This document shows positions 1,721-7,199 of a stretch of 7,199 nucleotides of DNA, in pieces (position 1 is the first letter of the stretch; each line of letters begins with the position of its first letter). The notes beneath the pieces were generated by a model, which had not been told where the DNA came from, did no database searches, and saw only the letters and a program-made list of their open reading frames with translations. The stretch spans positions 1 to 7,199 of the forward strand of contig CAMLOZ010000172.1 of the NCBI GenBank assembly GCA_946481625.1, in the 5' to 3' direction. A program made the position numbers and the translations under genes. Source of the stretch: an uncultured Haloferula sp. GTDB lineage: Bacteria > Verrucomicrobiota > Verrucomicrobiae > Verrucomicrobiales > Akkermansiaceae.

Positions 1721-1933
1721 TCAACGTCGAAGCGACTTCATCAAGTCTTCGTGAGTCATCCAAGACCCGCCTGCTGACTCGAACTTGCTCCAACGCGCCT
1801 CAGCCAATTCGAGCAATTCCGCATCTTCGTCCGACTCCTGAACGCGGGAGAGAATCTCTTCGGCGACCGCCCTGCGTTCCGCGGGATCAAGCGCCATGAT
1901 CTTCTCAAGAAGCTCCATTCCCGTTTCACTCAT
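1721..1933 (-). CDS. Antitoxin, 'putative addiction module component' family (PF09720-like)
   Basis: A 70-residue acidic protein. The segment LDPAERRAVAEEILSRV (15-31), then an acidic linker, LAEARWSKFES (43-53) and the tail WMTHEDLMKSLRR (58-70) follow the layout of small antitoxins in PF09720 (a leading 'L..eER..la..LL.sl' helix, an 'aW..E...R...' helix and a closing '(i/p)..e(e/d)....lr' segment). Its partner is the RelE/ParE-like protein encoded directly downstream, and antitoxin-first order is the usual one. ATG 1931-1933 is chosen because homology begins near it; M6 (ATG ending at 1918) is an alternative. AGGTG lies just 2 nt before the ATG, too close for an ideal ribosome site. It follows accD by 41 nt. 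I see no DNA-binding domain, so autoregulation is not evident. Family call is good; neutralisation of the neighbour is inferred from context. Confidence 0.8.
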   Translation of the reverse strand: MSETGMELLEKIMALDPAERRAVAEEILSRVQESDEDAELLELAEARWSKFESAGGSWMTHEDLMKSLRR

Positions 1934-4655: not shown

Positions 4656-4663
4656 GGCATGGA

Positions 4664-4705
4664 GAATGAAGTCCCAAGTAAAAAGTTCCAAGTTCCAAGT
4701 TGGAA
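4664..4705 (-). repeat. Heptanucleotide repeat tract A (six TTNNNNC units)
   Basis: Read on the minus strand the tract is six contiguous 7-bp units: TTCCAAC, TTGGAAC, TTGGAAC, TTTTTAC, TTGGGAC, TTCATTC. Every unit begins TT and ends C, while the middle varies. A looser copy (TTGGAGT) lies just upstream at 4709-4715. The array points into the 5' end of the CPBP gene and ends 8 bp before its proposed GTG. Confidence 0.85.
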
Positions 4706-4763
4706 TAACTCCAAGGGAACACGTCATGCAGCCGTCGAGCCGCTACCTTGGAACTTGGAACTT
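4683..4763. repeat. Perfect 17-bp inverted repeat flanking the centre of the divergent spacer
   Basis: The arm at 4683-4699 (AAGTTCCAAGTTCCAAG) is exactly complementary to the arm at 4747-4763. The 47-nt loop contains a smaller hairpin, TTGGA at 4700-4704 with TCCAA at 4710-4714. It arises because two heptad arrays face each other. A transcript crossing the whole spacer in either direction could form a long stem. Confidence 0.85.
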
Positions 4764-4812
4764 CCCCCCATTGGCACTTGGCACTTCTGCCTTGGAACTT
4801 CAGGCTTCCGGC
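4748..4812 (+). repeat. Heptanucleotide repeat tract B (nine TTNNNNC units with one 2-nt interruption)
   Basis: Plus-strand units are TTGGAAC, TTGGAAC, TTCCCCC, then CA as an insertion, then TTGGCAC, TTGGCAC, TTCTGCC, TTGGAAC, TTCAGGC, TTCCGGC. The last unit ends at 4812, and the ATG of the small downstream gene begins at 4813. The consensus is TTGGMAC, with TT at positions 1-2 and C at position 7 invariant. Confidence 0.85.
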
Positions 4813-5061
4813 ATGGAGACCCACGAGTGGCGCGAGCGGACGGAAGAAGGACTGCGCTTCTGGCGCGCATCCCGCCACGCGAACCGCTGGGCCTTCCAAA
4901 CCACCCTCAAGACCGACCCCGACTGGACCCCGGTGGACCCGGTTCCCCGCGAGTTGTGGGCCGAGTTACGGGAAATCCTGTGGCGGAAATACCAGCGCAA
5001 GCGTTGCCCGTGGGAGTGGATCGAGGCGATCGACAAGATGCTCGCCGAAGAAGAAGGGTAG
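4813..5061 (+). CDS. Small hypothetical protein, 82 aa, Trp/Arg/Glu-rich
   Basis: I do not recognise a named family. The 82 residues start METHEWRERTEEGLRFWRA and end IDKMLAEEEG. It is soluble (no hydrophobic segment or signal peptide) and unusually rich in tryptophan (eight: positions 6, 17, 25, 36, 47, 53, 66 and 68) and arginine. Predicted layout from reading: an N-terminal helix, a short strand-like piece with DPDWTPVDPVP (33-43), a helix around ELWAELREILWRKYQRKR (45-62), then a closing helix WEWIEAIDKM (66-75). The compact, patterned composition looks like a genuine folded protein. It is the only complete plus-strand gene in the window and is divergent from the CPBP gene. The ATG at 4813 is chosen because upstream in-frame codons translate repeat DNA; tract B ends exactly at this ATG and no Shine-Dalgarno sequence is seen. 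Confidence 0.7.
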   Translation: METHEWRERTEEGLRFWRASRHANRWAFQTTLKTDPDWTPVDPVPRELWAELREILWRKYQRKRCPWEWIEAIDKMLAEEEG

Positions 5062-6447: not shown

Positions 6448-6470
6448 GGGAAGCGGGATAGAAGATATAA

Positions 6471-6486
6471 GATCGATGATCGATGA
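6471..6486 (+). repeat. Short tandem GATCGAT repeat in the gspE-gspF spacer
   Basis: GATCGAT occurs twice in tandem, followed by GA and then the looser seven-base run GAAACTT, GAGACCT. The unit length is again 7 bp, though the sequence differs from the TTGGAAC tracts. It lies about 23 bp upstream of the gspF start on the minus strand. Confidence 0.5.
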
Positions 6487-6543: not shown

Positions 6544-6573
6544 TTGGAACTTGGACCTTCCGACTTGGCACTT
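6544..6573 (+). repeat. Heptanucleotide repeat tract C (four TTNNNNC units)
   Basis: Plus-strand units TTGGAAC, TTGGACC, TTCCGAC and TTGGCAC follow one another without gaps, then TT at 6572-6573. The next seven bases (TTCACTC, 6572-6578) also fit TTNNNNC and contain the gspE stop codon, so the tract abuts or slightly enters the end of that gene. Confidence 0.8.
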
Positions 6574-7199
6574 CACTCCGTGGCGATGTCGGTCGAGGTC
6601 ACGGAGATCACTTCCTCGATGGTCGTCTGGCCCTGCATCACCTTGATCCAGCCGTAACCGCGCATCGGGATGAATCCCTCCTTCACCGACTGGGCGCGGA
6701 TGTCCGGGGCGCTGGCACCGTGGGCGATCATGTCCTGCATCGCCTGGCTCAGCACGACGACCTCGTAAATGGCGAGACGGCCTTGGAAGCCCGTGCCCCG
6801 GCAGCGGTCGCAGCCCTTCGCAACGAAAGCCTGGCCCTCGAGGTTCATCGGAATGCCCAGTTCGCGGCGGTCGTCCATGGTCACCTCCCGCGGCACCTTG
6901 CAGTGCGGGCAGAGCCGGCGGACAAGGCGCTGGGCCAGGAAGGCTCGGACGGCCGCGGAAACGAGGAAGGGCTCCACGCCCATGTCGATCAAACGGCTGA
7001 TGCCGCCCAGCGCATCGTTGGTGTGGAGGGTGGAGAACACCAGGTGACCGGTGAGCGAGGCGCGGATGGCGATTTCCGCGGTCTCGAGGTCGCGGATTTC
7101 CCCGATCATCACCACGTTCGGGTCGGCACGGAGAATGGAGCGGAGTCCGGCGGCGAAGGTGAGGCCGATGTCCGACTTCACCGCGATCTGCATCACGCC
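6573..7199 (-). CDS. gspE: GspE/PilB-family secretion or pilus assembly ATPase, C-terminal part (5' end outside window)
   Basis: Cytoplasmic hexameric ATPase that powers pilus or pseudopilus assembly on the GspF/PilC platform. The visible 208 residues start in the middle of the ATPase domain ([20 protein letters not shown]); the N-terminal domains, Walker A and Asp box lie outside. Seen here: Walker [10 protein letters not shown] (29-37 of the fragment), the His box [15 protein letters not shown] (49-63), and the tetracysteine zinc motif C97-PH-C100 with C130-DR-C133 inside an RLCPHC...[12 protein letters not shown] frame. The zinc motif is typical of GspE/PilB and absent from PilT-type retraction ATPases. 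The end reads VTSTDIATE before TGA 6573-6575. The gene precedes gspF in the same direction. Whether the machine is a type II secretion system or a type IV pilus cannot be told here. Confidence 0.95.

Follow-up and report, generated by a model that had tools for sequence, protein, structure and literature searches.

What produces, and what maintains, the runs of degenerate TTNNNNC heptads between two back-to-back genes of a Verrucomicrobial genome? An earlier note on this DNA had proposed either decay under a constraint or a mode of copying in which TT and C are retained. We analysed the window, by which we mean the whole stretch of 7,199 nucleotides, together with related loci and genomes. The explanation that we favor has two layers, and we give it as a whole a probability of about 0.64: the heptads would have been born by slippage, and a few of them would be held in place by promoter function.

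The divergent spacer and its heptad arrays

The window belongs to the vicinity of Haloferula and Luteolibacter (Verrucomicrobia), its GspF being 87% identical to that of Haloferula sp. BvORR071. A Pfam search identified a Mur-ligase family protein, a ParE-like toxin, a carboxyl-transferase (AccD-like), a double-zinc-ribbon protein, a CPBP (Rce1-like) protease, T2SSF (GspF), and T2SSE (GspE), gene starts being taken from a simple caller written for this analysis. The spacer with the TTNNNNC heptads lies between the gene of the CPBP membrane protease (Rce1-like, PF02517; 3591 to 4655, minus strand, GTG start placed by homology) and that of a small conserved protein of 82 amino acids (4813 to 5061, plus strand), for which the Pfam search gave no family. 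Many of the relatives fetched have an open reading frame similar to the latter (91 to 39% identity) adjoining their CPBP gene and, judged by homology, the two genes form a conserved divergent pair. Synteny between the CPBP gene and gspF was found only in L020 and L081 among the 81 loci searched, L081 having been fetched for TTGGAAC. Elsewhere in the window, a ParE-like toxin gene (PF05016, E = 3.7e-07) overlaps a short upstream open reading frame without a Pfam match (1404 to 1793 and 1721 to 1933, minus strand); situated between the Mur-ligase family (folC-like) and accD-like genes, they look like a toxin-antitoxin pair.

We recovered all 15 units of the earlier note, in two opposed arrays. 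Six are on the minus strand, the sense strand of the CPBP gene (TTCCAAC, TTGGAAC, TTGGAAC, TTTTTAC, TTGGGAC, TTCATTC; 4664 to 4705), and this array ends 8 bp ahead of the GTG start, the first base of which is 4655. The nine plus-strand units are broken by a 2-bp CA at 4769 to 4770. Three of them (TTGGAAC, TTGGAAC, TTCCCCC; 4748 to 4768) occupy the outer part of the predicted plus-strand promoter region, and the remaining six (TTGGCAC, TTGGCAC, TTCTGCC, TTGGAAC, TTCAGGC, TTCCGGC; 4771 to 4812) abut the ATG at 4813. The window holds two more sets of heptads that were absent from the earlier finding: a fourth TTNNNNC array (TTGGAAC, TTGGACC, TTCCGAC, TTGGCAC, TTCACTC; 6544 to 6578), which is read on the plus strand and overlaps the stop codon of gspE, the genes being on the minus strand, and, in the gspE-gspF spacer, heptads of another wording (CATCGAT, CATCGAT, CTTATAT, CTTCTAT, C; about 6457 to 6486, minus strand), in which ATC recurs every 7 bp.

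The TTNNNNC arrays of the window are real and not due to chance. Three arrays of at least three units occur in positions 4656 to 4812, while 1,996 of 2,000 dinucleotide shuffles had none and 4 had one. Over the whole window, the four real arrays of this size compare with none in 393 of 400 shuffles, one in 6, and two in 1, and the three arrays of at least five units have no counterpart in any of the 400. For the pattern TTNNNNCTTGR, the window has 8 occurrences versus 1.06 expected, all of them inside the four arrays. TT and C, described as fixed, are indeed present in all 15 units, but the observation is partly circular, since the units were picked by that pattern. Eight of the 15 resemble one another as TTGGNNC units; the other seven do not, their cores being unlike GGNN.

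The opposed arrays also contain a perfect 17-bp inverted repeat (4747 to 4763 with 4683 to 4699), and one might take them for a functional hairpin or cruciform, be it a terminator, a recombination element, or a phase-variation element. L122 likewise has an inverted repeat of 17 bp, but among the five spacers compared those of L121, L123, and L127 reach only 8, 5, and 7 bp, for shuffled means of 5.4 to 6.2, and we consider such a function very improbable. In L122 (1362 to 1497), the repeat is unlike that of the window and is formed by the same TTGGCGCTTGGAAGTT on both divergent promoters; conversion between the two arms is possible.

Seven-base-pair periodicity in the relatives

Two samples of relatives were analysed: 80 GspF loci (1.35 Mb), which were chosen by protein and not by repeats, and eight genomes (G006, G257, G078, G137, G001, G004, G119, and G030), which were picked for their TTGGAAC matches. 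In the GspF loci, runs of at least three TTNNNNC units stood at chance level (9, shuffled mean 8.6), so that an excess over shuffled sequence was not borne out there; runs of at least four numbered 2 versus 0.3. The picked genomes show that the arrays are not confined to the window locus: runs of at least three exceeded the shuffled mean in G006 (22 versus 2.2), G257 (5 versus 0.4), G078 (5 versus 0.6), and G137 (4 versus 0.7). The corresponding values were 3 versus 0.9 in G001, and those at or near the shuffled level were 2 versus 0.8 in G004, 1 versus 0.8 in G119, and 0 versus 1.1 in G030. Because TTNNNNC runs are at chance in the 80 loci and uneven among genomes, the TT/C frame is patchy.

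The constant in the relatives is instead the period of 7 bp, of which the pooled data show an excess. Degenerate segments in the 80 GspF loci numbered 33 at period 7, versus 1, 1, 5, 4, 2, and 0 at periods 4, 5, 8, 10, 11, and 13, with 6 at period 14. Exact runs of at least 11 matches, counted in the 80 loci plus the window, gave 28 at period 7 and 2, 1, 5, 2, 2, and 1 at the same comparison periods; there were 12 at period 14, and periods 6, 9, 12, and 15 were also raised (9, 14, 9, and 11), as coding sequence would give. The eight genomes (1.915 Mb) contained 44 period-7 segments, 31 of them in G006, versus 0 at period 4, 2 at 5, 3 at 8, 4 at 10, 0 at 11, 1 at 13, and 8 at 14. Outside G006, the number of period-7 segments per genome was 0 to 5, in about 200 kb of each; G030 had none in the 200 kb scanned, despite 60 TTGGAAC matches genome-wide. 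Chains of four or more occurrences of any trinucleotide at a constant step, with overlapping chains counted so that they are not independent arrays, numbered 356 at 7 bp in G006 (10.5 expected) and 458 in nine other sets (56 expected), while steps of 4, 5, 8, 10, 11, and 13 gave 6 to 12 in G006 and 52 to 102 in the nine others, with the highest value at 8. A small control, 100 kb of Escherichia coli K-12, yielded 2 period-7 chains, versus 0 to 1 at other periods, and not a single segment at any of the eight periods tested. CTT is among the ten leading period-7 trinucleotides in G006 and not in the other sets.

The arrays of G006 (L101 to L120 and L221 to L230) are exceptionally dense: 557 kb contain 31 segments. 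A GGGGATT block among them resembles the Nostoc unit, and this genome is a candidate model for period-7 slippage.

How the units relate to one another bears on the way in which they were made. When chains in 3.2 Mb of relatives were split by the likeness of their 4-base cores, the period-7 excess was limited to related cores: three-unit chains numbered 248 versus 9 to 18 in G006 and 389 versus 91 to 143 elsewhere, and four-unit chains 170 versus 0 to 2 and 214 versus 38 to 54. Chains with unrelated cores had no clear period-7 excess over periods 8, 10, 11, and 13, whether of three units (136 versus 88 to 128 in G006, 651 versus 602 to 655 elsewhere) or of four (3 versus 0 to 3 and 8 versus 9 to 13). 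The degeneracy therefore looks like duplication followed by divergence. It does not look like templated copying of a new kind that keeps TT and C and draws new cores, the second option of the earlier note; the seven window units with cores unlike GGNN speak for such copying, but it should have left fixed-trinucleotide chains with unrelated cores, and we give it next to no credence. Together with the shuffle-level runs in unselected loci, the trinucleotide chains and the unrelated-core test rule out TT/C as a privileged frame.

The objection that slippage gives identical units holds for fresh arrays only. More than one unit type was present in 46 of the 62 intergenic arrays detected, by a detector that penalises mismatches and thus misses more divergent arrays. 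Units switch in frame, for example from AACATCG (twice) to AACCTTG (eight times) and GAACTTG (six times), from TCGGATT (eight) to GGGGATT (five), or from GATCGTA (three) to GATAGAA (six). According to the two-layer explanation, slippage during replication that favors a 7-nt step would generate period-7 tandem repeats of almost any unit in the spacers of the order, and mutated units would be amplified again, giving degenerate arrays that stay in frame. Slippage is, we infer, the cause of the arrays.

Placement was followed in ten sets, with L006 and L007 left out as kin of G006. Of 75 period-7 arrays, 13 were coding by our own gene calls and 62 mostly outside genes; 59 lay in spacers between two called genes. 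Compared with the numbers expected from spacer length, co-directional spacers had 47 arrays (35.1 expected), divergent ones 9 (14.0), and convergent ones 3 (9.8), and the quartiles of co-directional spacers, from stop to start codon, held 15, 19, 9, and 4. Arrays in general thus do not favor promoters but co-directional spacers and the side of the stop codon. A general start-codon or 5'-leader element, which some arrays suggest, was dropped on account of this stop-side bias. Several TTGGAAC arrays of G006 are located 12 to 25 bp ahead of a start codon, and no -10 box is apparent there. The gspE-gspF spacer, inspected by eye, carries differently worded heptads in the window, L005, L006/L007, L009, and L012 and none in L001 to L003, which shows turnover between species. 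In two places in G004 (L083 and L097), TTGGAAC heptads flank a hairpin-like stretch, rich in GC and containing CCCCCG...CGAAGGGGG, which resembles a dispersed repeat.

Predicted leaderless promoters within the arrays

At the window locus, the arrays overlie what appear to be the divergent promoters of the CPBP gene and the small conserved gene. From their upstream sequences, both genes look leaderless, with a -35 box TTGGMA, 16 to 18 bp, a -10 box YANNNT, and 6 to 8 nt before the start codon. For the small gene, the predicted boxes are TTGGCA (4778 to 4783, plus strand), at -35 from the ATG and preceded by the heptad TTGGCAC at -42, and CAGGCT (4801 to 4806), after a spacer of 17 and six bases before the ATG, so that the last two plus-strand units, TTCAGGC and TTCCGGC, coincide with the predicted -10 box and the six nucleotides between it and the ATG. 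For the CPBP gene, they are TTGGAA (4686 to 4691, minus strand), at -36 from the GTG and preceded by the heptad TTGGAAC, and CATTCT (4663 to 4668), again with a spacer of 17. TGGCAC is also the -24 box of sigma-54 promoters; this candidate was set aside, the site being at -35 with a -10 box at -12.

These elements are conserved among orthologues. We compared 16 CPBP upstream regions with starts placed by homology, namely the window, its 14 closest loci (L121 to L134), and L081, leaving out 16 more distant loci (L135 to L150) and second copies in a genome. All 16 have a GTG start and a TTG[GA] -35 box 34 to 37 bp before it. A -10 box YANNNT follows at a spacing of 16 to 17 bp in 15 of them, including the window, and L126 has none in range. 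A TTNNNNC heptad directly precedes the -35 box in 11 of the 16 (L123, L128, L131, L132, and L133 lack it), with cores as varied as GGAA, GGCA, GGCG, CGCT, CAAA, and ATCA. Decay under a constraint accordingly fits the -42/-35 heptads, whose core varies but whose TT and C are retained, and only this one position. For the 82-amino-acid gene, of which 9 of the 16 upstream regions were counted, the TTG[GA] box is present in 7, a TTNNNNC just upstream of it in 5, and a -10 box in 5, at a spacing of 17 to 18, the window included. The full set is thus found in only 5 of the 9; L130 and L134 have the box only, and L132 and L133 have none in range. Between the window and L121, the heptads at -42, -35, and -14 are unchanged; that at -7 differs by one change and those at -28 and -21 by several.

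The -10 position of about 12 bp before the start (15 of 16 CPBP and 5 of 9 small-gene upstream regions) and the -35 spacing of 16 to 18 bp match leaderless promoters of the sigma-70 type as outlined in PMC3160421, where TANNNT is placed about 12 bp before the start. Cappable-seq of Akkermansia muciniphila is reported to have shown 10% of its transcription start sites to be leaderless (PMC4782308). These promoters and the predicted ones share the -10 position, the spacing, and the lack of a leader; the TT....C heptad that immediately precedes the -35 TTG is extra here, relative to what those sources describe.

If both genes are leaderless, as they appear to be, the arrays would be outside the mRNA. 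This weighs against a role at the RNA level, in which heptads in 5' leaders would bind a posttranscriptional regulator. Such a role has been proposed for the TAACTGA repeats of Beggiatoaceae (PMC4679880), a precedent that the arrays just before some start codons bring to mind, but arrays in co-directional spacers are biased toward the stop codon, and array units vary widely. We regard it as quite improbable.

A sequence-specific regulator, for which the TTGGMAC heptads would be tandem operators that co-regulate both divergent genes, arrays elsewhere being other sites, would account for the like heptads on both promoters, for the 17-bp inverted repeats between the two sides in the window and in L122, and for two upstream regions of G257 in which TTGGCAC/TTGGAAC units recur in similar phase over a -10 box TAGGCT. 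In L129, L130, and L134, however, TT....C is retained although the cores are unrelated, and array units differ between spacers and species, an observation on heptad arrays in general and not on the TTGGMAC subset. Moreover, the exact pattern TTGGAACTTGGAACTT occurs in 20 of the 288 genomes of the order (with 72 matches, overlapping ones included, in G006 and 60 in G030), versus 154 of 288 with a CPBP homologue at E <= 1e-30. A regulator of this kind thus seems unlikely to us.

According to the two-layer explanation, conserved letters of the promoter would lie in the -42 and -35 heptads (TT, with C ahead of TTG); selection for binding by RNA polymerase would keep this pair, promoter selection would keep the -10 heptad, and the remaining heptads would be drifting by-products. 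The use of the predicted promoters is probable on this account. Promoter signals are visible beyond the locus, in 614 upstream regions from seven genomes (the eight less G030), 462 of them from genomes other than G006; single genomes are too thin for positional profiles of their own. YA[GAT]NNT at -15 to -11 was present in 85 of the 614, versus 27 to 46 in thirteen other 5-bp bins, and TTG peaked at -38 to -35 with 24 to 33 per position versus about 10 elsewhere. The pattern TTNNNNCTT was found 18 times at -45 to -41 in the 462 non-G006 regions, versus 54 over sixteen other bins. With G006 excluded, TT exactly 7 bp before TTG was present in 17 of 101 upstream regions with TTG at -38 to -34, for a control of 4.5 scaled from TTG further upstream; in the same 101, TT was 8 bp away in 11 and 6 bp away in 6. 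A second set of 587 upstream regions from 78 loci, which share many orthologues and exclude L006 and L007 as kin of G006, gave a peak of TTNNNNCTT as well (16 in one 4-bp bin versus 0 to 9 in others). Here, TT preceded TTG with the heptad gap of 5 bases in 13 regions and with 3-, 4-, and 6-base gaps in 11, 11, and 9; because these other gaps are also raised, the 7-bp spacing may be loose. The upstream TT at -42 may be read by polymerase, for example by the alpha subunit.

A bolder proposal, which we make tentatively and hold to be rather doubtful, is that the core promoter of Verrucomicrobiales is itself a 7-bp module (TTNNNNCTTG, with TT at -42, C at -36, and TTG at -35) that both seeds period-7 slippage and selects the surviving heptads. 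Tandem heptads would then be a mutational route to extended, shifted, or new promoters, and polymerase would contact the -42 TT as an extended -35 element.

Relation to known heptanucleotide repeats

The heptanucleotide tandem repeats of cyanobacteria known as STRR can be likened to the present arrays by repeat type. The earlier note had held consensus and degeneracy to differ from those of STRR; the unit here does differ from known heptads, but the class is of the same kind, and as far as we have seen the host group and the overlap with predicted promoters are the additions. Heptanucleotide repeats are over-represented in bacterial genomes, and slippage has been proposed for them (Mrazek and colleagues 2007, as cited in PMC4692102 and PMC4679880). 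The long simple sequence repeats of this class, as summarised there, share with our arrays the prominence of period 7, the proposed slippage, and the intergenic location, and we found both over-representation of period 7 and mainly intergenic placement (62 of 75). Unlike those repeats in the same summaries, the units here are degenerate, numerous per genome, and switched in frame, and some of them at the window locus are predicted promoter elements.

A parallel in degeneracy is offered by the GGGAATC and GGGGA(C/T)T heptads of Xanthomonas and Nostoc, which, in the part of PMC4692102 that treats them, combine conserved and variable positions and are placed like the period-7 arrays here; Calothrix heptanucleotides are mentioned there too. 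They are described as one G-rich, quadruplex-forming unit type, whereas TTGGMAC has no G-runs: TTGGGAC alone among the 15 window units has three G in a row, and GGGRATY pairs were found in none of the window and in 3 of 232 loci. The TAACTGA repeats of Beggiatoaceae are likewise tandem intergenic heptamers but, as PMC4679880 presents them, consist of a single fixed unit located mostly just before start codons, unlike the arrays here; TAACTGA pairs were absent from the window and from all 232 loci. In the literature searched, which most subscription journals fall outside, we found no description of heptad repeats in Verrucomicrobia. Such repeats may be tabulated in a survey of 2014 with Verrucomicrobia in its phylum table (PMC4060949), in a 2025 survey that reports enrichment of a subset of 6- to 9-bp units in prokaryotic phyla (PMC12699852), or among the 54 short tandem repeats of Methylacidiphilum (PMC4210602).

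For the preference of bacterial spacers for 7 bp, polymerase slippage is still only a proposal in the passages of PMC4692102 and PMC4679880 that discuss it. The Verrucomicrobia group offers a clean case for such models, with one genome at about 34 times the expectation for period-7 chains; the other tested periods being near expectation and the units switching in frame, slippage models become testable. The arrays also lead to a concrete hypothesis, namely that leaderless promoters of Verrucomicrobia may contain an extended -35 element.
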